Below are positions 3,756 through 20,834 of a DNA stretch of 64,000 bases, in pieces. Below the pieces are notes generated by a model that saw only the letters and a program-made list of their open reading frames with translations, did not search any database and was not told the origin of the DNA. The stretch is from NCBI RefSeq assembly GCF_024055635.1, contig NZ_JAMXMB010000012.1, positions 1 through 64,000 of the forward strand, given 5' to 3'. Origin of the DNA: Microbacterium yannicii. Its GTDB lineage: Bacteria > Actinomycetota > Actinomycetes > Actinomycetales > Microbacteriaceae. The position numbers were made by a program, and so were the translations under genes. Position 1 is the stretch's first letter. Every line of letters begins with the position of its first letter.

Positions 3756-5069
3756 ATGTTCACACGCAGAAAGGCGGGCGCCGTCGGCGCCGTGGCGATC
3801 GTCGCCTTCGCCGCGACACTGGCGGGCTGCACCGGCTCCGCCCCCGCCGGCGAAGCGGCGCCCACCTACGATCCGGACGAGAAGGTGACCCTGGACTTCG
3901 CGTTCTGGGGAAACGACGTCCGCGCCGAGATGTACAACGAGGCGATCGCCGCGTTCAACGAGGAACACCCGAACATTACGGTGAACCCGACGTTCCTCTC
4001 CTGGGATGAGTACTGGGAGAAGCGTCAGACCGAGGCCGCGGGCAAGAACCTCCCGGATGTGTTCCAGATGGACATGACCTATGTCCGCCAGTACTCGGAG
4101 AACGGGCTGCTCCTGGACCTCACGCCCTACGTCGGCGACATCATCGCCACCGACGGCTACGACGAGAGCGTGCTCAACATCGCATCGGTCAACGACATGA
4201 TCGCGGGCATGCCGGTCTCGACGAACGCCATCGGGATGTTCCAGAACGTGGTCCTCACCGACCAGGTCGGCGTCGAGCCCTTCGACGGTGGCGACTGGGA
4301 GGCGTACGACGAGTGGCTGCACCAGGCCGGGGATGCCGCCGAGGCCGCCGGACTCGAGGTATGGGGCGGTGCGGACCCCACCAGCTTCATTCAGCCGTTC
4401 GAGCTCGTTCTCCGCTCCGAGGGCAAGTCGGTCTTCACCGAAGAGGGTGAGCTCGGCTTCACCAAGGACGACCTCGCCGACTTCTGGAATCGCGGCGCCG
4501 AGTTGCGTGAGGACGGCGTCGTCACCCCGCAGCAGCGGATCCAGGAGGTCGCTCCCAAGGGCGCCTTCGACACCGCCCAAGCGCTCACCGAGATCGTGTG
4601 GGACAACTTCGGCGCTCCGTACCTCGCAAACCTCGGCGAGGCGTATCCCGAGCTGAACCTCGTCGCTCCTCCGGTCACAGAGGAAGGAGCCAAGGACCTG
4701 TACAAGAAGGCCGGCATGCTCATCTCCGTCGCGGCGAACACGGAGCATCCCGAGGCCGCCGCCCTGTTCACCGACTTCCTGGTGAACAGTCCCGAGGTCG
4801 GCGCCATCTTCGGGACGAACCGAGGGATGCCGGCGTCCCAGACGCAGCTCGAGGGCGTCGAACTCGACGACACCGCCCAGCAGATCATCGACTACGAGGC
4901 GTCGATCGCCGACCGCATCGGGGATCCCCCGCCGGTGCCGATCGTCGGCTACGGCTCGGTCGAGGCCAAGTTCAAGGCGCTCGGTCAGGAACTCGGATTC
5001 GGCACGATCACGGTGGACGAGGCGGTCGACCAGCTCTTCGCCGAGATCGACGTCATCGTCAATCAGTAG
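3756..5069 (+). CDS. ABC transporter substrate-binding lipoprotein, sugar type
   Basis: A 437-residue family 1 (CUT1-type) solute-binding protein. The N-terminus is a lipoprotein signal: MFTRRK, a hydrophobic core, then LAGC with the lipidated Cys at 25. The mature part starts with the family-typical LDFAFWGND and has the two-lobe pattern with AAFNEEHPNI near residue 67. It should be anchored outside the membrane and capture a sugar or oligosaccharide. GAAAGGAC lies a few bases before the ATG. No permease gene adjoins it: the next genes are a dehydrogenase and a DUF6807 protein, so it must share permeases encoded elsewhere. Confidence 0.93.
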   Translation: MFTRRKAGAVGAVAIVAFAATLAGCTGSAPAGEAAPTYDPDEKVTLDFAFWGNDVRAEMYNEAIAAFNEEHPNITVNPTFLSWDEYWEKRQTEAAGKNLPDVFQMDMTYVRQYSENGLLLDLTPYVGDIIATDGYDESVLNIASVNDMIAGMPVSTNAIGMFQNVVLTDQVGVEPFDGGDWEAYDEWLHQAGDAAEAAGLEVWGGADPTSFIQPFELVLRSEGKSVFTEEGELGFTKDDLADFWNRGAELREDGVVTPQQRIQEVAPKGAFDTAQALTEIVWDNFGAPYLANLGEAYPELNLVAPPVTEEGAKDLYKKAGMLISVAANTEHPEAAALFTDFLVNSPEVGAIFGTNRGMPASQTQLEGVELDDTAQQIIDYEASIADRIGDPPPVPIVGYGSVEAKFKALGQELGFGTITVDEAVDQLFAEIDVIVNQ

Positions 5070-5157
5070 CCCAGTGGTCGACGGGCGTGGCCGGAATGTC
5101 CCGCGCCGCGCCCGCCGGCACGCTCCACCGTCCAGCATCAAGAAGGAAACACAGGAC

Positions 5158-6273
5158 ATGTCCTCACCCCGCCCGCCCTTCCGCGTCGGCATCATCGGCA
5201 CGGGCGGCATCGCGCACGCCCACGCCGAGGCCCTGCAGAGCCTGGCCCCGCGCGTCGAGATCGCCGGCGTGGTCGACCTCGACCGCGCTCGCGCCGACGC
5301 GTTCGCCGAGCGCTTCGACGTCGACCGGGTCTACCTCGACGCCGCCGAGCTCTTCGCAAACGAGCAGCTGGACCTGGTGCACATCTGCACTCCGCCGCAG
5401 ACGCACACGCCGCTCGCGATCCAAGCGATGCGCGCCGGCGTCCCGTCGCTGGTGGAGAAGCCCACCGCGCTGAGCCTGGGGGAGATCGACGAGCTCGCGG
5501 CCGTGCAGACCGAGACGGGCGTGCCGGTGCTCACGGTGTTCCAGCACCGGTTCGGTGCGGCAGCCCGCCACCTCAAGGCCCTCGCCGAGGCGGGTGAGCT
5601 GGGCCGGCCGCTCGTGGCCACGTGTGAAACGTTGTGGTTCCGTCCCGACGAGTACTTCGACGTACCGTGGCGCGGGCGCTGGGATGTCGAGGGCGGCGGT
5701 CCGACCATGGGCCACGGCATCCACCAGTTCGATCTGCTGTTCGCGATCTTCGGCGCGTGGTCGGAGGTGAGCGCGTTCGCGGCCCGTCAGCTGCGGCCCA
5801 CCGACACCGAAGACGTCTCGATGGCGCTGGTGCGGTTCGAGAACGACGCGCTCGCAACGGTCGTGAACTCGCTCGTGTCGCCGCACGAGACGTCGCGCCT
5901 GCGCTTCGACTTCGAGTACGCCTCGGTGGAGGTGCAGCACCTCTACGGCTACACCAGCGAGGACTGGGCGTTCACCCCGGCAGTCGGGCATGAGCACCTG
6001 GCCACCCGCTGGGCCGAGCGCCTCGACTCCGGTGCGATCAGCGGCCACCGCGATCAGATCTCCGCGATCTTCGATGCGCTCGAGGCCGGCGCCGCCCCCG
6101 GCGTCGACCTCACCGAAGCGCGTCGCACCCTCGAGTTCGCCGCGGCGACGTACGCGTCGGCGTTCCGCCGGTCCGTCGTCGAGGCCGGCGAACTGACCGG
6201 CGACGACGCCTTCGTCCGATCCATGAGCGGCGGGATCGTGCCCTGGGCGCCCGTCAAGGAGGTTCTCGTATGA
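5158..6273 (+). CDS. Gfo/Idh/MocA-family oxidoreductase
   Basis: A 371-residue cytoplasmic NAD(P)-dependent sugar or cyclitol dehydrogenase. The Rossmann motif is VGIIGTGGIAHAHAEAL (10-26), and the family-typical lysine is in VEKPTAL (99-105). The C-terminal alpha/beta domain follows, with HGIHQFDLL as the usual histidine-containing segment that replaces the catalytic region. I start at ATG 5158; the frame extends upstream but that part is not family-like. It follows the binding protein by 88 bp and overlaps the next gene by four bases (ATGA), so the three form an operon. Such enzymes often oxidise inositols or glycosides as the first step of use. Substrate unknown. Confidence 0.92.
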   Translation: MSSPRPPFRVGIIGTGGIAHAHAEALQSLAPRVEIAGVVDLDRARADAFAERFDVDRVYLDAAELFANEQLDLVHICTPPQTHTPLAIQAMRAGVPSLVEKPTALSLGEIDELAAVQTETGVPVLTVFQHRFGAAARHLKALAEAGELGRPLVATCETLWFRPDEYFDVPWRGRWDVEGGGPTMGHGIHQFDLLFAIFGAWSEVSAFAARQLRPTDTEDVSMALVRFENDALATVVNSLVSPHETSRLRFDFEYASVEVQHLYGYTSEDWAFTPAVGHEHLATRWAERLDSGAISGHRDQISAIFDALEAGAAPGVDLTEARRTLEFAAATYASAFRRSVVEAGELTGDDAFVRSMSGGIVPWAPVKEVLV

Positions 6274-9913: not shown

Positions 9914-10438
9914 CTAGGTCGCCGCGGCATCCCATCCGTCTGTCTGCAGCGGCAGCTGCATGATCAGGAGGTCGAGCCACCGCCCGAACTTGGTTCCGAC
10001 CTGTCGGACCGTTCCCACCGCGGTGAACCCGGATCGTTCGTGAAGTCGGATGGATGCCGCGTTCCCGGCCTCGATGTTGGCGACCATGACCCGCATCCCG
10101 GCGTCCTGTGCGAGGCGCACGATCTCGGCGAGAAGCGTCGCGCCGATGCCCCGGCCCCGATGCCCCGCGGCCAGGTACACCGAATTCTCGACCGTGAAGC
10201 GATAGCCCGACTTCGGCCGCCACGGCCCGAAGCTGGCGTAACCGACGACCACGTCGTCCACAACAGCGACGACCACCGGAAAGCCGGCCGCCTCGCGCTC
10301 GGCGAACCAGGCCCTGCGTTCGACGAGATCCACCGGCTCATCGGTCCAGATGGATGTCGAGGTGCGGATCGCGTCGTTGTGGATCTCGAGAATGGCCTCG
10401 AGATCGGTCTCGTCGGCAGGCCGCAGTTGCACAGTCAT
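9914..10438 (-). CDS. GNAT N-acetyltransferase, Pat/Bar-like
   Basis: A 174-residue acetyltransferase of the phosphinothricin/methionine-sulfoximine type. It begins VQLRPADETDLEAILEIHNDA, has the W-T-x-E-P substrate-side segment (SIWTDEPVDL), the acetyl-CoA loop GHRGRGIGATLL and the conserved end FTAVGTVRQVGTKFGRWLDL. It should N-acetylate a small amine such as an amino-acid analogue. I start at ATG 10438 because it lies six bases after a TACTAT -10 box, giving a leaderless mRNA; the ATG two codons earlier (10444) is also possible. It is divergent from the XRE-cupin gene and shares its promoter region. Confidence 0.9.
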   Translation of the reverse strand: MTVQLRPADETDLEAILEIHNDAIRTSTSIWTDEPVDLVERRAWFAEREAAGFPVVVAVVDDVVVGYASFGPWRPKSGYRFTVENSVYLAAGHRGRGIGATLLAEIVRLAQDAGMRVMVANIEAGNAASIRLHERSGFTAVGTVRQVGTKFGRWLDLLIMQLPLQTDGWDAAAT

Positions 10439-10473
10439 GTGCATATAGTAGACGCATGTCGCAGATAGTAGAC
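10436..10473. promoter_or_regulatory. Back-to-back leaderless promoters with ATAGTAGAC repeat
   Basis: TATAGT at 10444-10449 on the plus strand ends six bases before the XRE-cupin ATG (10456). TACTAT on the minus strand covers almost the same bases (10445-10450) and ends six bases before the GNAT ATG (10438). The two -10 boxes therefore overlap. ATAGTAGAC occurs at 10445-10453 and again at 10465-10473 inside the regulator's first codons, 20 bp (two helical turns) apart. This looks like a direct-repeat operator for the XRE regulator that would shut both promoters. Confidence 0.6.
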
Positions 10474-11028
10474 ACCGCGTCCCGCGAAGTCGATGTTGCG
10501 GCGTGCGTGAAGGCGGCCAGACAGCAACGCGGATGGTCCGGAGCGCAGCTGGCGTCGGCGTCGGGTGTCTCGCGGGCGATGATCGACCGGATCGAACGGG
10601 GCGCCAGCAGCCCCACCGCGCTGGTCCTCGGCAAGCTCTCCGCCGCGCTCGGGCTCACGATCTCGTCTCTGCTCTCGCGACCGGTCGATGGGCCCGCGGC
10701 TGTCGTCCGCGATGGCGAGCGCGCGACCTGGACCGACCCCTCCACGGGATACCGGCGACGACAGGTGGTGGCAATGCCCGCGTTCCCCGTCGACGTGACC
10801 GAGGTGGTCTTGCCGCCCGGCGCCACGGTGAGCTATCCCGCAGGATCGTTCTCGTTCACGCGCCACCTGATCTGGGTTCTCGACGGCACTCTGACCTTCC
10901 GCGAGGGCGACGCCGTGCACGAGCTCGCGGCAGGGGACCGGCTCATCCTCGGCGCGGCGGCCGACTGCGACTACCGCAACGAGTCGGATCGCGACTGCCG
11001 CTACTGCGTCCTCGTCGCCCCGCTCTAG
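10456..11028 (+). CDS. XRE-family regulator with cupin domain
   Basis: A 190-residue regulator. Residues 13-68 are the XRE helix-turn-helix (VKAARQQRGWSGAQLASASG, then SRAMIDRIERG and SSPTALVLGKLSAALG). Residues about 108-188 form a small beta-barrel cupin (VVLPPGATVSYP, then HELAAGDRLILGAAADCDYR). Cupin-coupled XRE proteins sense small metabolites and often control transport or detoxification genes. It is divergent from the GNAT gene, its likely target. Its 3' end converges on jetC, where jetD is normally found. The start is the ATG that follows a TATAGT -10 box by six bases, so the mRNA is probably leaderless. Confidence 0.92.
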   Translation: MSQIVDTASREVDVAACVKAARQQRGWSGAQLASASGVSRAMIDRIERGASSPTALVLGKLSAALGLTISSLLSRPVDGPAAVVRDGERATWTDPSTGYRRRQVVAMPAFPVDVTEVVLPPGATVSYPAGSFSFTRHLIWVLDGTLTFREGDAVHELAAGDRLILGAAADCDYRNESDRDCRYCVLVAPL

Positions 11029-11114
11029 CGTGACTGCGTGCCGCTCAGCAGTGGCGGCGATCCCCGCTGAGCGCCGTCGAGTTCGGCGGGCCCGCCAGCC
11101 GTCCGCTCACTCAC
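11025..11114 (-). other. 29-codon coupled frame after jetC, possible jetD stub
   Basis: A GTG at 11112-11114 overlaps the end of jetC (GGTGAGTGA), the same coupling geometry used by jetA-jetB and jetB-jetC. The frame reads [17 protein letters not shown] and stops after 29 codons, inside the end of the convergent XRE-cupin gene. In complete type I Wadjet loci jetD starts here. The peptide is too short to recognise as JetD, so it is either a residue of a lost jetD or chance. Confidence 0.25.
11042..11073. terminator. Possible shared terminator hairpin
   Basis: CGCTCAGC (11042-11049) and GCTGAGCG (11066-11073) are perfect complements with a 16-nt loop between the convergent XRE-cupin and jetC genes. 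No U-run follows. It could end transcripts from both sides. The long loop makes the call uncertain. Confidence 0.35.
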
Positions 11115-14100
11115 CGGCCTCCGAGAGCGCCACCTTGGGCTTCGCCCATGAGCGGCCGTGGGTGTCTTTGAGGATGTCGTACTCGACGTCGACGTGCGGC
11201 TCGATGGCGCTGTACTTGTCGTTCGGTGCGCCGATGATGAGCTGGAATCCGAGACCCCGCCATGCGCCGATGGCACGCTTGGTGAAATGCGCGTCGGCCT
11301 TGATGAGGGCTTCGTCGAGGAAGACGGGGGCGTACCGCGGGCGTTCGGCGCCGGCATCCCCCAGCTGATATCGGAGGGCGGCGCCGACGATGAACGCGAT
11401 CAGCTCTTGGGACTCGCCGCCCGACTTCTCGCCGATGTGATCGTAGAGAGCGACATGCTGCGCGGTGGTCGCGTGGATGCGCTCCGCGCTGACCCGCACG
11501 TGATTGCGCACATCGACGAGTTCGGCGAAGTCCGGAGCGCTGCGGCGCAGGCGGTTGATCAACCGCGACATCCGGTGGTACGCGCGTTCGCGCTCCTCGT
11601 CGGTGGCGACGGCTTCGATCAGCGCGCGCACCTCGCGGAGCTCTCGGCGGAATCGCCGGCGCACCTCGGACTGGTTCTCGCGCGGCGTGATCTGCAGTCG
11701 GTGGTCATCGTCGTAGAACGGGAGGTCGCGCATGATCACGTTGATCGGCTCGATCCGGTCGCGGATCTCCCGCAGCGAACGGCTCAGCGTCGAGTCGAGG
11801 TTGGTGAGGTCGTTGCCCGAGAGCTTGAGCAGGCTGTCGCGCCACTCCGCCTCGAGCTCGTGCAGCCCGCTGGTCTCGAGATCGGTGAGGATGCGTTCGA
11901 AGTCGCCGAGCGAATGGTCGGGGTCGGCGAGAAGGTTCGGGTTGGGCCAGCGATCGAGGAACCCGCTCAGAGTGCGCCGCAGGCTCTCCCGCTGCTCCGC
12001 TACGGCCTCCTGGGCGGCGCGCTGATCGTCGCCGAACCGGCGCGCCGCGGAGTCGAGCGCCGCGTCGAACCGCGCCAGGTCCTGGGTGCGGGTCGAGGAT
12101 CCGCTCCGGTCGGGAACGAGGAACTGCGTGTCGAGGTACGACGCCTGATCGTCGGTCAGTGCACGCCCTGCGGCTTCTGCCGCATCGATCACGGACTGGG
12201 CGGCGTCGACCTCGTCGGTCGTGGTAGCCCAGGCATCGGCGAGACGCCGGCCCTCCGCCTTGGCGCCGCCGATCGCCTCGCGCAGTTCCGCGGCTTCGCG
12301 GCGCTTCTGCTCGATCTGCGACTGGATGCCGGCGATCGCGGGGTTCGCGGTGGTGACGTCCGCGATGATCGCCTGCCAGCGCGCGCGCTCGCCTTCGAGG
12401 GAGGCGACGTCGACCTCCTCCCACGCCAGGCCCTGGATCTTCGCGTAGGCCGCGAGCCGTGCGTCGAAGGCGTCGAGCTCGGCGCCGGCCTCGACGGCCG
12501 CCGTGCGCGCGGCCTCGAGCTTGGCGCGGACGGCTCCGAGCTGCGCAGCGAGTTCGCCCAGACGCCGGTGGGTCGAGAAGCCGAGGACGTTGGCGCGGCC
12601 GTGCCCGCCGTGTGCCCCACGCGAGCCGTGCGAGGTCTGCCCGGAGATGGTCAGCGTCATGCGGTGGGCGCTCAGGTCGTCGGCCGCGTCGACGCAGACG
12701 TAGCCGAACCGGCGATCCAGCTCCTCCTGCAGCCATCCCGTGAAGGGCGTGCTCTTGAAGTCGAGCCGGCCGGGCAGGGTCTGCGGGTCGCGGGCACCCA
12801 CGGCGGGGAGCCCGGTGTGAACGCCCTCGTACCGCAGGCGGTCGGCGGTGCGGACGGAGTCGATGGCGGCGCGGAACGCCGGCAGCAGTGCGACGTCGAT
12901 GAGCAGCGTCGTGGCGAAACCGCCGAGGGCGAGGTTGAAGGCCTCCCGCCACGGCTCGAACTCCGTGCGCACCTCGATGAGCTCGCCGACGAACGGAAGG
13001 TCGCCGGTGGCCAGGCCGGCCGTGCGGGCCAGCAGATCGCGGGACCGGCGGAGCCGGTCGGGGATGTTGTCGTCATGGCCTTCGGCGTCGCGCCGCTCGA
13101 CCTCGAGCTCGGTGACGCGGGTCGCGAGGGTGTTCCTCGCGCCGACCGCCGCCGCGTACGCCTCGCGAAAAGTCTCCTTCGCATCCGCATCGGCGGCGGC
13201 CTCACGGGCGCGCTGCGACAGCGTCTCGAACTCCGCCGCCGAGCCGACCTCGATCTGCAGCACCTCGAGCGCCGCGTCGAGCTTCTCGCGCTCCCGCGCC
13301 ACGCTCGTGAGCCGGTGCTCCACGCCCCGGAGCTCGCGATGGGCGGTCTCGAGCCGGTCGCCGCCCGCGGCGCGCAGCACGTCTCCAAGACCTTCCCGAG
13401 AGAGGTCCGCTGCCTCTGCCAGCGCCTGCTTCTCGCGTACGGCGGCTTCGGCGGCGCGGGTCCCGGCCTGCAGCTCCGCTTCGACGTCGCGCAGCAGGTC
13501 GAGGCGGCGGGAGGCGCGCCACAGCGTCGCCAGCGAATCCGGCTCGGTGAAGCGGCCGATGTCGTCGAGCAGGCGCAGCCGTTCGGCGGACTCTTCGATG
13601 CGCGCCCGCGCCGACCTGATCGGCTCCAGCGCGCGCACCTGCTGCTGCGCCGTCAGCATGCGACTGCGCGTGCTCTCGAGACCGTCGAAATGCGCCACGA
13701 CGGCGTCGGCGGTGGCCAGCGTCTCGGGTTCCTCGAGCACCATGCGCTTGTACAGGTCGTCGACGGTGGTGATCTGCTGGCCGGCCTGGATGCGGGCGAG
13801 GAGGCTCATCGCCTTGGCGCCCGCTCCCGCAGCCCCGATTCCGAGCACGGTGTGGAGCCGTGCGGAGAACTCCCGGTCGGTCGCGACGGTGTCGAGCCCG
13901 GCGCTCTTGACCGCGGCATCCGTCAGTCGCAGCGCAGCGGCCGCCTCGAGGGAGCTGAGATCGAAGGCGCCGGTGACGGTCGCGCGCACCCGCACGGTGT
14001 CTTCCACGACGCGTGCGGCCGCCGGGATGTACCAGGCACGCACCGCGGTGAAACGCGACCCGTCGTGGTCGAGCCACGTCATCGCGATCGCCGTCCAGGT

Positions 14101-14466
14101 GTCGGTGCCGTCTCCGCGGAGCACCGTCAGCTTCGTGCCGTCCTCCGTCCGGGTCTCGTCGGTCTTGCCCCGCCCGTACGAGAGGATGTTGCGCTGCTCC
14201 TGGCCCCGCGGCCGCCCGACGACCGCGCCGTTGGACGCGCCGTTGAACGGCGTCGTGTGCGGCATCATGAGGGCCACATACGCGTCCATCAGGGTCGACT
14301 TGCCGGAACCGGACCCGCCGCACAGCAGCGTGGCGGCCGGCGAGAACCGCACGCGGTGGGCTCCGTCGTAGCCACCCCAGTTGACGAGCTGCAGCTCATC
14401 GGCGACCCACTGCTGACCGCGAGAAGCCGCGGGGATGAGCCCGAAGAGGGTGTCCAGCATGGTCAC
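11107..14466 (-). CDS. jetC: Wadjet JetC, SMC/MukB-like ATPase
   Basis: An 1119-residue SMC-family ATPase, the motor of the Wadjet anti-plasmid complex, which extrudes DNA loops. The N-terminal Walker A is GGSGSGKST (50-58). Long alanine/glutamate/arginine-rich coiled-coil segments cover about 280-480 and 650-900, with a hinge-like globular part (about 500-620) between them. The C-terminal head has the signature KSGGESQ (1014-1020) and Walker B APVFLDEA (1046-1053, D1051 and E1052). All ATPase motifs are intact. GTG 14466 overlaps the jetB stop by four bases; an ATG follows two codons later. Family knowledge: JetC acts with JetA (kleisin) and JetB (KITE) and hands circular DNA to the JetD nuclease. 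No jetD follows here. Confidence 0.93.
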
Positions 14467-15290
14467 AGTGCGACCTCCGTGTCGTCGGCATCGATGTCGG
14501 CGTCGGTGTCGACGTCGGCGTCGTCGTCGTCCAGGTCGATCGGGACGGACTGCGCCGACTGCGTGTCGAGCCAGTCGCGCAGCGCGCGCAGGCGGTCGGA
14601 GCTGAGCAGGATCTCGACGAGCGCGTTGATCCGAAAGCGGCCCTCCGACTCCTCCTCGATGACGCCGTCCTGGCGCAGCCGGCCGACCGCGGCACGGATC
14701 GCCTTCTGCCGTCGGGCCGTGCTGCCGTCGGCCTCGGCGAAGTAGGTCAGGACCGTCTGCTCGATCTCCTCGATGTCGACACGTGCCGAGGACTCGCCGG
14801 CGGTCGTCTCGCGCTGGTAGACCGTGCGCAGATGCACCAGCACGAGGGTCTCGGCACGCGAGTACGCCTCATCGCGCAGGAGGATCGGGATCTCGAGTTC
14901 GTCCGACCGGATCTGCTCCTTGTACGCGACGCCGCGATCGTGGTCGACGACGAGACGCACGAAGAGGTCGTTGAGGCGCGACTCGATCGTGTGCTGATGA
15001 TCCATCAGCACCGTCCACTCGGCGCGGTTGCGCTCGGCCATCAGGAAGCGGCGCTGAAGAAGCCGCACGAGCACGCGGCGCACCTCGGGGTCGAGCACGC
15101 CCCGGTCGCCGGGGAAGAGCTCCTCGGGGTCGTGCTCCATCGCGACCGGATCGATGAACGGGACGTCGGGGATGGTGGCGGTGGCCGACCCGGTCTCCGT
15201 CTCGCTCGCGGCATCCGTGGCGATGCCGGTGTCGGGGTCGGCGGTGGCGAGCCCCGTAGTGGTGTCGGGAGCGGTCGCGAGGTCAGTCAT
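14463..15290 (-). CDS. jetB: Wadjet JetB, DUF4194 KITE-like subunit
   Basis: A 275-residue DUF4194 protein, the MukE/KITE-like winged-helix subunit that bridges JetA and JetC. The core runs from about residue 55 ([20 protein letters not shown]) through [12 protein letters not shown], where the GVAYK part is family-typical, to winged helices around [13 protein letters not shown] (205-217). The first 50 residues are a Thr/Asp/Ala-rich low-complexity tail, and the last 20 are a run of Asp-rich dipeptides, both longer than usual for the family. Start ATG 15290 overlaps jetA by eight bases; the stop overlaps jetC by four. This is strong evidence for translational coupling of the three subunits. 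Confidence 0.9.
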
Positions 15291-16752
15291 TCTCGATCTC
15301 TTTCACAGTGCTGGCGGTCACGGCGCCGAACGCGAACCGGCGGCTCGAGCCGTCGGGCCGTCGCGCCTCGGCGACGGAGACCTCCTCGCTCTCGGTCATG
15401 CCGTTGCGGTGGGCGATCTCCAGCAGTCCCAGGAGATCGACGGGGCGGCGGGTGTCGTCCGCGGCGCCCTCGAAGGCGGTGGCGAGGTCGAAGCGGTCGC
15501 CGAGCGTCGCGACGTACTCCTCGAGCTCGGCGTACCGCGGGCCGCCCCAGGCGCGGGTGTCGGCATCCACGAATTCGATGTCGTCCGGCGCAGGCAGCGG
15601 CGCGGGCGCGCCGGGTGGGCGGAGGTCGCTGAGCGACTGCCGGAGGTGCCCGATGTCGGAGACCGGGAACGTGTGCAGCGGTTCGACGCGGTCGCCGGGC
15701 CGGGAGTCCTGCATCCACACCTGCAGCCCCGACATCACGCCGCGGAGCAGCTCGTCGACCTGACGATCGCGGATCGGGTCGTGGGTGCGCACCTGCGCCG
15801 TGATCACCTGCGACGCGCGGCGCTGGGCGGTGAGCACGTCCTGCACGCCCTTCTCGACCTGCCGGCCGATCGAGTCGAGATCGCTGCGCTGCCCCGGCCC
15901 CATGAGTCTCGAGAACGGCTGTGCGAGGAGGGTGCGCAGCTGCGTCGTCAGGCGGTCGATGTGCTCGGGGTCGCCGATGAGGCGCAGCGCCCCTTCGAAC
16001 GCCCGCCCTTCGGGTGTCGACTGCATGACGTGCTGACCCCGCTGCAGGTACTCGCGGAGGATCTCACCCGTGGGACGGATGTCGCGGCGCAGGTCCGCGA
16101 CGACATCCCGCTGCATCGCGTTGATCGACTCCGCGACGCGCGAGAAGTCGGCGGGCAGCTCGCGCGCGAGGTGGAGGACGTTCTCAGCCTCCTCGAACAG
16201 CTGCTCGTCGTCGATCGGCTCGGCCTCGTCGTTTCGCAGCCGGGCGATCTCCGCGTCCAGCGCGTCACGCTCCTCCAGCAGCAGGGCGATGCGTGCCTCC
16301 GGATCGGATTCCGCGTCGCGCGCCAGCCGCTCGACGGCGTCGAGCAGTGTCCGCACCCGCGATCGTGACACCCGCGCCCTCCCGCCGCCGGTGCGGCCCG
16401 CGATCTCGAGCGCCCCCACGGCGTGAGCGGTCAGCCGGTAGACCTCGACATCGTCCTCGAGCTGGGGTGCCAGCCATCCGACCCGCACCCAGTTGCGGCA
16501 GATCTCGCGGGCGGTGCCGACCGGGAGGCGGCGTTCGTCGTCGTCGTAGCCTGCGGCGCGCAGCTCTTCGATGGCCTCGCCGATCTCGACATGGGCGTCT
16601 GCGACGGCGACCGACCGGCGCTCGGCGGTGAACACGATCGACAGCACGGCCACCACGAACGGCGCGTAGCGGCCGTGGAGAAGATCGAGAGTCGGATCCT
16701 TGAACGCCAGCACCGAACGCTGGTAAGCCGCCTCGGCGCGCGTATTCGACAT
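15283..16752 (-). CDS. jetA: Wadjet JetA, DUF3375 kleisin-like subunit
   Basis: A 489-residue DUF3375 protein, the MukF/kleisin-like subunit of Wadjet type I. It starts with the DUF3375 pattern [22 protein letters not shown] (18-39), where a winged helix is expected. A central helical part follows (about 150-330, rich in Glu and Arg), then a C-terminal winged helix with [15 protein letters not shown] near 445. The ATG at 16752 is right for the family. The minus strand has TAATCT seven bases before it, so the operon may start as a leaderless mRNA. It is first in the jetABC operon; no regulator gene adjoins it. Confidence 0.92.
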
Positions 16753-16903: not shown

Positions 16904-17024
16904 CTGCCACTGTCGCAGACTGCCACGTCGTCACATCCGCGGTTCTCGCCTGGTCTTTTCTTGCAGGGGCTGCCGGCCGGCAACGGTCGGCGAACGCCCG
17001 CATCCAAGACCGAAAGGAACTGTC

Positions 17025-17975
17025 ATGACTCAGCATGTTCTGGAGGCGGAGGCCCGCGCCTTCGCCGACGCCGCCTCCCAGCCGCCGTTCCTCGCCGACC
17101 TCGGCGTCGACGGTGCGCGCAAGGTCTTGGACGATGTCCAGGCCGCCCCGATCGCCGAACCGGATGTCGCGGATGAGTGGACCACCGTGCCGGCCGACGT
17201 CGGCGATGTGCGCGTGCGCATCGTGAAGCCGCAAGGCGCCACCACCGACCTCCCTGTGATCCTCTACGTGCACGGCGGCGGCTGGGTGCTGGGCAATGCG
17301 GGCACCCACGACCGCCTCGTCCGCGATCTTGCGACGGGCACCGACGCCGCGATCGTGTTCGTCGAGTACGACCGGTCGCCCGAAGCGCGTCACCCGGTCG
17401 CGGTCGAACAGGTGTACGCGACGGCGCGCTGGGTCATGAGCGAGGGGACGACCAAGGGCCTCGACGCCTCCCGTCTGGCCATCGCCGGCGACTCCGTCGG
17501 AGGGAACATCGCAGCGGTCGTCGCGATCCTCGCGAAGAAGCGCGGTGACGTCGCATTCATCCACCAGTCGCTGTACTACCCGGTCACCGACGCCGGCCAG
17601 AACACCGCCAGCTACCGCGAGTTCGCCGAGGGATTCCATCTGCGCGCCGATGCGATGGCCTGGTTCTGGGACTGCTACCTTCCCGACCACGATGCCCGCA
17701 AGAACGTCACGGCGTCCCCGCTGCAGGCCCCGGTCGACGAGTTGAAGGGCCTCCCCGAGACCTTCCTCATCGTCGACGAGAACGATGTGCTCCGCGACGA
17801 GGGCGAAGCCTACGGGCGGAAGCTCATCGAGGCCGGTGTCCGCACCACCCTCGTGCGCTACGACGGGACGATCCACGACTTCATGATGCTCAACCCGCTC
17901 CGCAGTTCCGCTGCCAGCACGGCCGCGATCGAACAGGCCATCCATGTCCTCCGCAAGGCCTTCGCCGCCGCATGA
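17025..17975 (+). CDS. Alpha/beta-hydrolase, HSL (family IV) esterase
   Basis: A 316-residue cytoplasmic carboxylesterase of the hormone-sensitive-lipase family. It has the oxyanion motif YVHGGGWVLG (81-90), the nucleophile elbow GDSVGGN (155-161, Ser157; the usual Ala is Val), the acid Asp254 in DENDVLRDEG and His284 in GTIHDF. It should hydrolyse short acyl esters. GAAAGGAAC before ATG 17025 fits a ribosome site; the frame open upstream is not family-like. The next gene overlaps its stop by four bases. Confidence 0.92.
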   Translation: MTQHVLEAEARAFADAASQPPFLADLGVDGARKVLDDVQAAPIAEPDVADEWTTVPADVGDVRVRIVKPQGATTDLPVILYVHGGGWVLGNAGTHDRLVRDLATGTDAAIVFVEYDRSPEARHPVAVEQVYATARWVMSEGTTKGLDASRLAIAGDSVGGNIAAVVAILAKKRGDVAFIHQSLYYPVTDAGQNTASYREFAEGFHLRADAMAWFWDCYLPDHDARKNVTASPLQAPVDELKGLPETFLIVDENDVLRDEGEAYGRKLIEAGVRTTLVRYDGTIHDFMMLNPLRSSAASTAAIEQAIHVLRKAFAAA

Positions 17976-18613
17976 GCTCTCCAGACTCGAGCAGGAGCGA
18001 TCGTGCGGAGCCGGTGATGGCGGATGCCGAACCCGACGCCTCTGCATTCAACAGCGCGGTGGGCACTGAGCTCTTCGTTCTGCAGTCGGTCGCGAGCTCG
18101 ACGATCAGCGAAGCCGGGACGCGCAGCACGATCTATCTGTCGACGCTGTCCGGCGGGCTCGTGGCGATCGGGTTCGCGGGCGGATCACCGGGGTTGCTGG
18201 CCAGTCTCGCCTTCACCGTCCTGCCGACGATCTTCATGCTCGGGTGGTTCACCGTCGTGCGGCTGGTCGACACCAGCGTCGAGAACATCACGGTGCGCCG
18301 GCGCATGGAGCGGATCCGGGAGCACTTCGTCAGCCTCCACCCTTCCGGGCCGGATCTGATCTCGCTCGACAACCCGCGCACCGGCGAGTTGGGGGTGCGC
18401 TACTCCCACTCGTCGTTCCTCTTCACGATGGCGAGCATGGTCGCGGCCGTGAACTGCGTGCTCGGGGGAGCCGTCGTCACCCTCGCGCTGATCTTCGGAG
18501 GAGGGTGGGAGATAGTTCCTGCCCAGATCGCCGGGGTGGCCGTGGGTGTGCTGCTTCTCACCGCGACGCTCGCCTATGAGCGCCGACGCATTCGCGCGGC
18601 CTACCCGGAGTGA
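17972..18613 (+). CDS. Four-helix membrane protein, function unknown
   Basis: A 213-residue integral membrane protein with two helical hairpins: hydrophobic segments at about 52-71 and 74-97, then 147-175 and 182-203, with a soluble loop of about 50 residues between them. The N-terminal 30 residues are polar and acidic. No catalytic motif is visible and I do not recognise the family. ATG 17972 overlaps the esterase stop (ATGA), so both are made from one mRNA; a second ATG at codon 16 is possible. A membrane-linked role with the esterase is possible but unsupported by sequence. Confidence 0.7.
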   Translation: MSSPDSSRSDRAEPVMADAEPDASAFNSAVGTELFVLQSVASSTISEAGTRSTIYLSTLSGGLVAIGFAGGSPGLLASLAFTVLPTIFMLGWFTVVRLVDTSVENITVRRRMERIREHFVSLHPSGPDLISLDNPRTGELGVRYSHSSFLFTMASMVAAVNCVLGGAVVTLALIFGGGWEIVPAQIAGVAVGVLLLTATLAYERRRIRAAYPE

Positions 18614-18662
18614 CGTCGGGGGACACTTGCCTGACCACTCCCTCGAAAGGAAGCAGGATCCC

Positions 18663-18857
18663 ATGGAAGATCCACGCGCTGATGCACCCGACGATCTCAC
18701 GGGGACAGTCGATGACCGGCAGGAGCAACTCGCACTCCTCCCTGCCGACGCGCTGTCTGCGGACTGGCTTCGGCGACAGCTCGACAACGCGCTCGCCGCG
18801 TGGTCCGCGGCGGAGACGGAACTCGACATCTCGAAGGAGGCGCACACCGACTACTGA
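18663..18857 (+). CDS. Small acidic hypothetical protein
   Basis: A 64-residue frame with a good ribosome site (GAAAGGAAG before the ATG). It is rich in Asp, Glu, Ala and Leu, and its C-terminal half (SADWLRRQLDNALAAWSAAE) should be an amphipathic helix. It follows the membrane protein by 49 bp on the same strand and may be the last gene of that unit. No family recognised. The ribosome site and codon bias are the main reasons to accept it. Confidence 0.5.
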   Translation: MEDPRADAPDDLTGTVDDRQEQLALLPADALSADWLRRQLDNALAAWSAAETELDISKEAHTDY

Positions 18858-18926
18858 CAGCAGGCGGGGTGCGGGATCCGGCCAGGACGCACGACGACCT
18901 GATCGAAGGCGGGGCGCTGCGCAGCG

Positions 18927-19295
18927 TCAGCCGAGCTCGTCCGCGAGCAGCGAGCGGTAGATCCGCCGTGCGTCGGTGTGGACCGCCGTGCCCCTGTCGG
19001 TGATCTCGACGACCATCGAGCGACGGTCGAACCCGCACTCCGCCCGCTGCACGAGACCGGCCTTCTGGAGCCGATCGACGATGCGTGACAGCGCGCTCTG
19101 GGTCATCGGCGTGCGCTGCACCAGGTCTCGCATGAGGCACTGCTCCTGACGAACCTCGGCGACCAGGTCGAGGATCTCGAACTCGCTGAGTCCGAGGTCG
19201 CACTGCTCGTCGAGCGCGCGCTCCAGAGCGGATGCGGTCGAGAGGTATGTGGACTGCAGGGAGCGCCATCGCTCCACCACGTCTTTCTCGGCCAT
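18927..19295 (-). CDS. MarR-family transcriptional regulator
   Basis: A 122-residue MarR protein. The winged-helix domain includes LGLSEFEILDLVAEV, DLVQRTPMTQSALSRIVDRL (recognition helix) and the wing ECGFDRRSMVVEITDRG with the conserved D-R-R. N- and C-terminal helices for dimerisation are present. ATG 19295 follows a minus-strand TAGGAT -10 box by six bases, so I prefer it to the GTG two codons upstream. It is divergent from the DHA2 exporter gene that it most likely represses. ACATATGT in its promoter spacer is a candidate operator. Confidence 0.92.
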   Translation of the reverse strand: MAEKDVVERWRSLQSTYLSTASALERALDEQCDLGLSEFEILDLVAEVRQEQCLMRDLVQRTPMTQSALSRIVDRLQKAGLVQRAECGFDRRSMVVEITDRGTAVHTDARRIYRSLLADELG

Positions 19296-19301
19296 GACCA
19301 C

Positions 19302-19382
19302 ATCCTAGCCGGAAACATATGTCGCGGCATTGCATGCTGGCGAATCCAATGTTGACGCAACCTATGACGTGACATGTATCTT
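19302..19382. promoter_or_regulatory. Divergent promoters of MarR and DHA2 exporter
   Basis: On the minus strand TAGGAT (19302-19307) serves marR, with palindrome ACATATGT (19315-19322) in its spacer. On the plus strand TTGACG (19352-19357) and TATCTT (19377-19382, 19-bp spacer) could serve the exporter. The latter would make the exporter start GTG 19389, leaderless, instead of ATG 19374. The dyad is a plausible MarR binding site. All assignments are by eye. Confidence 0.45.
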
Positions 19383-20834
19383 GTGCATGTGACCTCAACA
19401 ACCATCCGGGTCGTTCCCGGTTCCGACACCCCGACCCAGCGCTGGACGACGCGCACGTGGCTGCTGCTCCTCGTGGTGTGCATCGTCATCGCGCTCGACG
19501 GGCTGGACGTCTCCATGGTCGGCGTCGCGCTGCCGGCCATCGGCACCGAGCTGTCGCTCGAGACCGGCACCCTGCAGTGGATCGTGTCGGCCTACGTGCT
19601 CGGCTACGGCAGCCTGCTGCTGCTCGGCGGGCGCCTCGCCGACCTGCTCGGCCGCCGCCGCATCCTGCTCATCGCCCTCACCGTGTTCGCCCTCGCCTCG
19701 CTCGCCGGCGGGCTCGTGAGCGACCCCGCGATCGTGATCGCCTCGCGCTTCGTCAAGGGCATCGCTGCCGCGTTCACGGCACCGGCCGCCTTCTCGCTCA
19801 TCACGACGAACTTCGCCGAAGGCCCTTCACGCAACCGCGCGATCTCGATCTTCACCACGTTCGCGGCCAGCGGGTTCTCGCTCGGCCTCATCGTCGGCGG
19901 GCTCATGACCTCGCTCAGCTGGCGCTGGACGTTCCTCTTCTCGGTGCCGTTCGCGGTGGCGGCGGTGGTGCTCGGCCTGTTCTTCATCCCACGCGACCAC
20001 GTCGCGAAGACCGGCGGCCACGACATCTGGGGCGCCCTCACCCTGGCGGTGGGCATGCTCACGCTCGTCTACACGATCGTCTCGGCGCCGGAGGCGGGCT
20101 GGGGCTCGCTCCAGACGATCCTCGGCCTGGCGGTCGCGGCTGCCGTGCTGGCAGCGTTCGCGATGATCGAGCTGCGGGCGCGGCATCCGCTCATCCGCTT
20201 CGGCATCCTGCGCGAGGGGTTCGTCGCGCGAGCCAACATCAGCGCGATCGCCCTGTTCGGGTCGTACGTGAGCTTCCAGTTCATCCTCACGATCTACCTG
20301 CAGTCGGTGCTCGGCTGGCCGCCGCTCAGCATGGCGCTCGCCCTGCTGCCGGCGGGACTCGTGGTGGTGGCGACGGCCCCGTTCGCCGACCGGCTGATCG
20401 ATCGGTTCGGATCGCGGCTGCTCATCACCGTGGCCCTGGGCGCCCTTTCGCTGGGCTACCTGCTCTTCCTGCGTGTGGGCACCACGCCGGTGTACACGGT
20501 CGACATCCTGCCGTCGGTGCTGCTCCTCGGTGCCGGGTTCGCGCTGGGGTTCCCGGCCATCCAGGAGCGCGCGACCGCGGGCATCTCGAACGACGAGCAG
20601 GGGCTCGCCGCGGGGCTCGTGCAGAGCAGCTCGCAGGTGGGCGCGGCGCTGGTCCTCGCGGTGACGTCGGCCCTCATCGCGGGCGGCGACCTGGCCGCCG
20701 ACGCGAGCGCGGCGCAGATGCTGGACGGATTCCGCCCGGGGCTCATCTTGTCGACCGCCGTCGCACTCGCCGGGTTCGCCGTCGCGCTCGCGCCCCGGCG
20801 GCGGCCGCGCGCGGTCGACGCGGGCGTGAAATAG
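19374..20834 (+). CDS. DHA2-family (EmrB/QacA) MFS multidrug exporter
   Basis: A 486-residue permease with about 14 hydrophobic segments, the DHA2 number. Motifs: IALDGLDVSMVGVALPAIG in helix 1 (the D-x-x-x-V-x-VALP of drug exporters), GGRLADLLGRRR in loop 2-3 and ASGFSLGLIVGGLMT (antiporter motif C region). It should extrude lipophilic drugs by proton antiport from the membrane. The start is either ATG 19374 or, if the -10 box at 19377 is real, GTG 19389. The divergent MarR gene is its likely repressor; a strong hairpin follows at 20862. Confidence 0.92.
   Translation: MYLVHVTSTTIRVVPGSDTPTQRWTTRTWLLLLVVCIVIALDGLDVSMVGVALPAIGTELSLETGTLQWIVSAYVLGYGSLLLLGGRLADLLGRRRILLIALTVFALASLAGGLVSDPAIVIASRFVKGIAAAFTAPAAFSLITTNFAEGPSRNRAISIFTTFAASGFSLGLIVGGLMTSLSWRWTFLFSVPFAVAAVVLGLFFIPRDHVAKTGGHDIWGALTLAVGMLTLVYTIVSAPEAGWGSLQTILGLAVAAAVLAAFAMIELRARHPLIRFGILREGFVARANISAIALFGSYVSFQFILTIYLQSVLGWPPLSMALALLPAGLVVVATAPFADRLIDRFGSRLLITVALGALSLGYLLFLRVGTTPVYTVDILPSVLLLGAGFALGFPAIQERATAGISNDEQGLAAGLVQSSSQVGAALVLAVTSALIAGGDLAADASAAQMLDGFRPGLILSTAVALAGFAVALAPRRRPRAVDAGVK

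Follow-up and report, generated by a model that had tools for sequence, protein, structure and literature searches.

A type I Wadjet operon without the jetD nuclease gene in Microbacterium yannicii and a clade of actinobacterial relatives

The jetABC operon and the missing jetD

The window analysed here is a stretch of 64,000 nucleotides from Microbacterium yannicii (assembly GCF_024055635.1, contig NZ_JAMXMB010000012.1, positions 1 to 64,000) that carries an operon of the type I Wadjet system, consisting of jetA, jetB and jetC with no gene for the nuclease JetD (Table 1). A preliminary description of the sequence had recognized three overlapping genes for a DUF3375 protein, a DUF4194 protein and an intact SMC/MukB-like ATPase, and this was confirmed by Pfam, PADLOC, PDB chains and motifs. 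JetA matched PF11855 (DUF3375) with an E value of 6.7e-111 and the PADLOC model JetA1 at 716 bits, JetB matched PF13835 (DUF4194) with an E value of 2.3e-39 and JetB1 at 360 bits, and JetC matched PF13555 (AAA_29) and PF13558 (SbcC_Walker_B) as well as JetC1 at 1663 bits. Sequence searches against PDB chains of JetA, JetB and JetC gave E values of 1.7e-14, 7.4e-6 and 9e-43 respectively, the last over JetC residues 18–1091. JetB also scored 35.3 bits against the MksE profile PF21980 (cut-off 27), although DUF4194 was the better fit. No NCBIfam model names these genes; jetA and jetB were unmatched and jetC gave only an SMC match under the cut-off. Walker A, the signature SGGE and Walker B (VFLDEA) were all found in JetC, and the components by which a type I Wadjet is recognized, a DUF3375 JetA, a DUF4194 JetB and an SMC-like ATPase JetC, are all present. 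The genes overlap by 8 bp (jetA/jetB) and 4 bp (jetB/jetC).

In complete relatives jetD sits directly after jetC. As had been noted from the letters alone, this site is taken up in the window by a convergent regulator gene, whose product matched HTH_3 (PF01381, E 7.9e-14), with a cupin match (PF07883) slightly under its cut-off. This gene is not a conserved partner, and no gene at that place is common to most relatives. Profile searches of the whole genome (4,444,727 bases, 42 contigs, completeness 100) for JetD_C (PF09983) and DUF3322 (PF11795) returned no matches to either, both profiles being positive in the Corynebacterium glutamicum control, and the single DUF3375 match was the jetA of the window. 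A jetD homologue lying just outside the window, which the preliminary description had allowed for, was found neither adjoining it nor elsewhere in the genome.

After the window jetC, no jetD was detected by a profile built from relatives or by tblastn. The idea of a diverged jetD overlooked by Pfam was rejected; the relatives-built profile and tblastn, the latter run with eight JetDs as queries on up to 4 kb after jetC in loci scored as jetD-less, gave nothing beyond the known broken copies. An early version of the jetD profile had given weak matches in many loci, which were out-of-frame jetC ends from stop-to-stop open reading frames (ORFs) and were removed by a cleaned profile. An assembly error at the junction is unlikely, as the same arrangement occurs in independently assembled relatives and the locus of Microbacterium psychrotolerans (L238) is scarred by a jetD deletion at just this point.

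Table 1. Features of the jetABC locus, with positions in the window
Feature	Positions	Strand	Description
jetA	15283-16752	minus	Kleisin subunit (DUF3375), 489 amino acids counted from this start
jetB	14463-15290	minus	KITE subunit (DUF4194), 275 amino acids
jetC	11107-14466	minus	SMC/MukB-like ATPase, 1119 amino acids, motifs intact
XRE/HTH_3-cupin regulator gene	10354-11028	plus	Convergent, next gene after jetC, in jetD position
Possible jetD stub	11097-11110	minus	14 bases; GTGA overlap with the jetC stop and first jetD codons

Phylogenetic distribution and loss of jetD

Loci for comparison were taken from the genus, from named relatives (the 80 best of 150) and from places in 396 genomes of the order. 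Matches were found in 168 of those 396 genomes, and the 60 listed places that were fetched comprised the new ones at 35 % identity or more, except that of genome G355, plus 18 weaker outgroups. Five loci were added for their JetD_C beside jetC, so the count of jetD-bearing tips is enriched by choice. Seventeen loci were dropped because of contig ends, absence of jetC, frame shifts or stops (L090, L097, L099, L103, L121, L125, L140, L147, L148, L153, L154, L155, L156, L158, L221, L226 and L227) and L152 gave no match; L097 was returned to the JetC set as a C-terminal fragment. The resulting 221 JetC sequences gave 193 distinct ones. A locus was scored as having no jetD when at least 1.5 kb of sequence was present and no ORF starting within 2.5 kb after jetC matched the profile at E 1e-6, with the states of L097 and L299-L303 assigned by hand. 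In addition to a FastTree phylogeny of JetC, two IQ-TREE trees of 54 chosen rows each and two JetD trees were built, the first of these from 22 of 41 JetDs and two pieces and the second from 17 rows.

In the FastTree phylogeny, the window JetC fell inside a clade of 145 tips with support 1.0, whose named members include Microbacterium, Leucobacter, Corynebacterium, Tessaracoccus, Arenivirga, Gulosibacter, Agromyces, Actinomyces and Cellulomonas. The comparison with related genomes proposed in the preliminary description thereby showed the jetD-less state to be clade-wide, which that description had not anticipated: jetD was absent after jetC in 129 of the 145 tips, open in 8, broken or partial in 4 (L161, L234, L300 and L303) and not judged at a contig end in 4. 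The jetD genes that are present in the clade formed one lineage, distinct from the sister-clade JetDs, at a Shimodaira–Hasegawa-like approximate likelihood ratio test (SH-aLRT) support of 100 (7 rows, including two pieces of broken genes), and a second set of 7 jetD rows again gave a single lineage (SH-aLRT 98). JetDs from other Wadjet classes were only 23–35 % identical to those of the clade. JetD follows JetC in broad outline only. The L299 JetD branches first, as does its JetC among the jetD-bearing rows of the clade, and the JetDs of a genus denoted g41 (L250, L301 and L302) group together with support 90. Because the small number of surviving jetD genes belong to a single lineage whose outline follows that of JetC, jetD looks ancestral and repeatedly lost, and the jetD-less state of the clade probably arose by repeated loss. 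Read strictly as losses, the JetC tree would require 30 of them.

The clearest trace of such a loss was found in L238, which adjoins the jetD-bearing Microbacterium locus L096 on the tree. Its scar consists of a 43 bp match at 95 % to L096, spanning the end of jetC into the start of jetD, and then a second match (69 bp, 84 %) to sequence close to the 3' terminus of the L096 jetD, with about 1 kb between them gone. M. psychrotolerans is also the nearest named relative listed for the window (JetC 92 %), and the JetC of L096 is 93 % identical to that of the window. In the window itself, a possible jetD stub reads GTGAGCGGACGGCT, compared with GTGAGCGAACGGCT in the L096 jetD and the L238 scar. Nine of the 11 bases after the jetC stop match L096, against 11 in L238 and 9 in L133, these being the sole loci with at least 9 among 147 jetD-less ones. 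As L133, which does not lie near L096 on the tree, also reaches 9, and as the stub gave an E value of 0.26 as a blastn match to L238, the stub is suggestive of a real remnant rather than proven to be one. Upstream of jetA, window positions 16928-20822 share 86–89 % DNA identity with L238; past the jetD site, no match of 60 bases or more between the two was present in the 8 kb of L238 compared.

Several further arrangements were observed at related loci. L271 and L272 have common flanks on both sides, with jetD in L271 and a phospholipase-D-like reading frame in its place in L272 (L272:7950-10000, named by recognized motifs rather than by a profile), and the 3' end of jetC differs between them. 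At L097 (L097:4489-11313) jetD is open, yet jetC has a frame shift, and the near-copy L106 has an intact jetC, no jetD and other flanks. Six more Microbacterium loci (L141-L146) carry another class of JetC, at 35–37 % identity to the window, also without jetD after jetC, and L095 and L100, from a branch related to these, have jetD. A second, distant jetD-less branch is formed by L289-L292 of family f12, with JetC at 27–28 % identity to the window (e.g. L292:3342-9221). In L292 jetB and jetC are separated by an opposite-strand gene at 4308-5690 that looks transporter-like by eye, and in L290 and L292 no jetA was recognized with the window JetA as query.

Constraint on JetABC and its genomic context

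The preliminary description had offered three options for the locus, namely a MukBEF-like condensin without cleavage, a system using a nuclease in trans or an inactivated defence locus. The first is best supported by the comparisons made here, the second is not supported as far as JetD is concerned and the third is disfavoured.

The ratio of non-synonymous to synonymous substitution (dN/dS) was calculated with a custom Nei–Gojobori script over tblastn-aligned stretches of 31 chosen pairs (20 jetD-less, 8 jetD-bearing and 3 mixed), taken partly from outside the window's clade. For JetC it was 0.07–0.15 in 18 of the 20 jetD-less pairs, with 0.22 and 0.48 in the other two, and 0.09–0.39 in the 8 jetD-bearing pairs. 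The high values (L258/L259, 0.29–0.48; L081/L082 and L281/L283, 0.22–0.39) came from pairs with dN of 0.15–0.35 and were treated as unreliable. On the window branch, which includes time before the loss of jetD, dN/dS was 0.08–0.09 for JetA, 0.11–0.12 for JetB and 0.08 for JetC. Walker A (GxSGxGKST), SGGE and the Walker B residues DE were kept in all 129 jetD-less clade members, a set made up of loci with full-length jetC only. A good jetA was present in 127 of these 129, one of the others being cut by a contig end and one barely under the length limit, and a good jetB likewise in 127, with L070 and L079 appearing interrupted. Beside this set, jetC was interrupted in L097 and L140 by frame shifts and in L226 by a stop. 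As judged from these alignments, jetD-less JetABC is under purifying selection, with dN/dS of about 0.1.

These values bear on the possibility that the operon is a dead defence system in the course of being lost, jetD first and jetABC decaying after it. Such a history would be in keeping with the broken or missing JetD of many lineages and with the interruptions of jetC and apparently of jetB listed above, but it is very improbable in view of the low dN/dS in most jetD-less pairs and on the window branch, the intact ATPase motifs of the full-length loci and the divergence of jetD-less JetC beside leuS to about 50 % identity without decay (see below).

Among 198 Microbacterium genomes, DUF3375 was found in 90 (87 above the curated cut-off) and JetD_C in 27. 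The window type of jetA, defined by more than 60 % identity, was present in 66 of the 198, of which 55 had no JetD_C anywhere and 11 had at least one. JetD_C adjoined the window-type operon in two of these 11, G101 (L096) and G042 (L097); in the remaining JetD_C-positive genomes it lay at other loci, and in G102 and G106 there were short weak matches only. A JetABC partnered in trans, either by a JetD from a different Wadjet or by some unrelated nuclease, could draw on these 11 genomes and on the phospholipase-D-like frame that stands in L272 where its close relative L271 has jetD. This partnership is nonetheless quite unlikely: the M. yannicii genome has no JetD_C or DUF3322 (the search being confined to these two JetD domains, with no other nuclease families included), the majority of genomes with window-type jetA lack JetD_C, no neighbour is common to most loci and the JetDs of other classes differ widely from those of the clade. 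A conserved replacement effector was likewise sought and not seen, the commonest neighbour family occurring at 11 of the 66 genus loci and the commonest non-jetD family at 16 loci of the wider set, with neighbours clustered from the gene calls of a simple custom codon-usage script. A plasmid-borne decoy directed against Wadjet was also not supported; a JetC relative (E ≤ 1e-30) was present in 4 of 72,556 plasmid records, none of them at 60 % identity.

A near-core distribution was found in another genus, g14 (family f9), where JetC was present in 18 of 18 genomes, 17 of them without an adjacent jetD. JetD_C was absent from 14 of these genomes, lay at a second Wadjet locus, as judged by coordinates, in 3 and followed this jetC directly in one (G632, L299). 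In 13 jetD-less loci from g14 and four related genera, the first gene upstream was leuS in 10, and in 1 more leuS came second; degV lay at most five genes downstream in 9 of those 11 leuS loci, often with intervening genes. The order at L265 is VKOR, leuS, jetA, jetB, jetC, degV, a comEA-like gene (SLBB + HHH) and a competence gene, then a DNA polymerase III delta gene, followed by rpsT, which alone is on the other strand, with a gap of 8 bp between jetC and degV. LeuS and JetC identities were correlated across 11 loci (Spearman 0.88; none of 2000 permutations reached this value), which is what long vertical descent would produce, and JetC identity among the jetD-less leuS-side loci falls to about 50 %. 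In g41, full-length JetC at 56–60 % identity was found in 38 of 60 genomes, with JetD_C next to JetC in four (one with an early stop) and a fragment in a fifth.

The main rival explanation is that JetABC without JetD still acts against plasmids, loop extrusion silencing or sequestering circular DNA with no cutting. In Microbacterium the operon has a patchy, mobile-like distribution, as expected for a defence system, and a review (PMC10586767) discusses how eukaryotic Smc5/6 might restrict extrachromosomal DNA by compaction, without a nuclease. However, a defence gene would not usually be expected in every genome of a genus, as seen in g14, or at a housekeeping site, as seen at the loci examined, and we consider this alternative unlikely.

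A proposed nuclease-free loop extruder and its relation to known systems

We favour the reading that JetABC descends from Wadjet I and is an MksBEF-like loop extruder without a nuclease, with a probability of roughly 0.6; its function is inferred. The reading starts from sequence comparison, in which JetD is absent, JetABC is intact with low dN/dS, ancestry is common with jetD-bearing operons and jetD has been lost in relatives. The ancestor would have been a complete type I Wadjet operon, jetABCD, from which jetD was deleted while the kleisin JetA, the KITE protein JetB and the SMC ATPase JetC were retained by selection. Based on the literature on JetABCD and MksBEF, JetABC would still assemble into an ATP-driven loop extruder that no longer cuts. 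The retained job would most likely be the nuclease-free organization or segregation of chromosomal DNA as a second condensin beside SMC-ScpAB, as for Pseudomonas aeruginosa MksBEF. A search of 12 genomes for ScpA (PF02616), as the one subunit of SMC-ScpAB covered, found it in M. yannicii and in 10 further genomes without jetD; the twelfth, G112, does not belong to this jetD-less set.

Several observations weigh against this reading. The window type occurs in only a third of the Microbacterium genomes (66/198), with varying neighbours, and the g41 operon is likewise incomplete in its distribution; such patchiness fits an accessory or mobile system better than an essential condensin. L097 and L106 share 93 % DNA identity across jetABC alone, with dissimilar flanks, a pattern that suggests transfer, with the operon moving as a unit. 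Equal-cost parsimony requires 10 changes only, compared with the 30 strict losses, and jetD may have been regained by transfer within the clade. The fine branching of jetD is unstable, L097 falling outside the rest with support 82 in one analysis and beside L096 with support 80 in another, and the L097 JetC lies in another Microbacterium group, not beside L096. At L299, jetD is present with leuS just upstream and the JetC stands apart from that of other g14 genomes; because it groups with the rest of the clade despite the upstream leuS, a replacement at the leuS site may have happened. The low dN/dS of the window branch covers some time before jetD was lost. Finally, C. glutamicum MksBEFG is reported to have no role in chromosome organization (PMC7083940).

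The window operon resembles type I Wadjet (also MksBEFG or EptABCD; JetABCD) in its JetA, JetB and JetC families, A-B-C order, overlapping genes and ABC ATPase motifs, but differs in that operon and genome are without the JetD/MksG nuclease. Without this nuclease, the cleavage that defines Wadjet is not possible by the route that is known. With P. aeruginosa MksBEF it shares a kleisin-KITE-SMC composition without a nuclease gene and the coexistence with SMC-ScpAB, for which ScpA was found here; it differs in that its proteins are called by the type I models JetA1, JetB1 and JetC1 and come from an actinobacterial clade that still includes jetD-bearing members. Roles of P. aeruginosa MksBEF in chromosome layout and segregation are reported in PMC7485682. 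The likeness to MukBEF lies in the three-part architecture, and the MukB N-terminal profile matched jetC weakly (21.1 bits, below the cut-off of 23), whereas the sequences are distant and ScpA is still present in the M. yannicii genome. The review PMC10586767 describes MukBEF as a replacement of Smc-ScpAB in enterobacteria, considers that P. aeruginosa MksBEF likely arose through JetD loss and treats as not resolved how Wadjet and the other SMC complexes are related by evolution. A nuclease-free MksBEF is already known in P. aeruginosa and is a published parallel to the actinobacterial jetD-less Wadjet I clade; among the open-licence papers searched, none was found that describes a type I Wadjet clade without jetD in Actinomycetota.

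The locus of M. yannicii also warns against labelling a three-gene Wadjet match as active defence. The retention of the motor without jetD by many relatives suggests a present job that needs no cutting. The clade displays the loss of jetD at several stages, with the gene open, interrupted, scarred or absent and the motor kept under constraint, and provides matched sets, for example L096 with jetD against L238 and the window without it, that are suited to probing nuclease-free JetABC. More tentatively, and at a little short of even odds, the Wadjet motor may have been split from its nuclease many times in the Actinomycetota and kept, becoming near-core at a housekeeping site in at least one lineage. 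The clade would then be a living series from plasmid defence to chromosome maintenance, the step proposed for the origin of MksBEF and MukBEF, in which the presence of jetD would decide between immunity and housekeeping.

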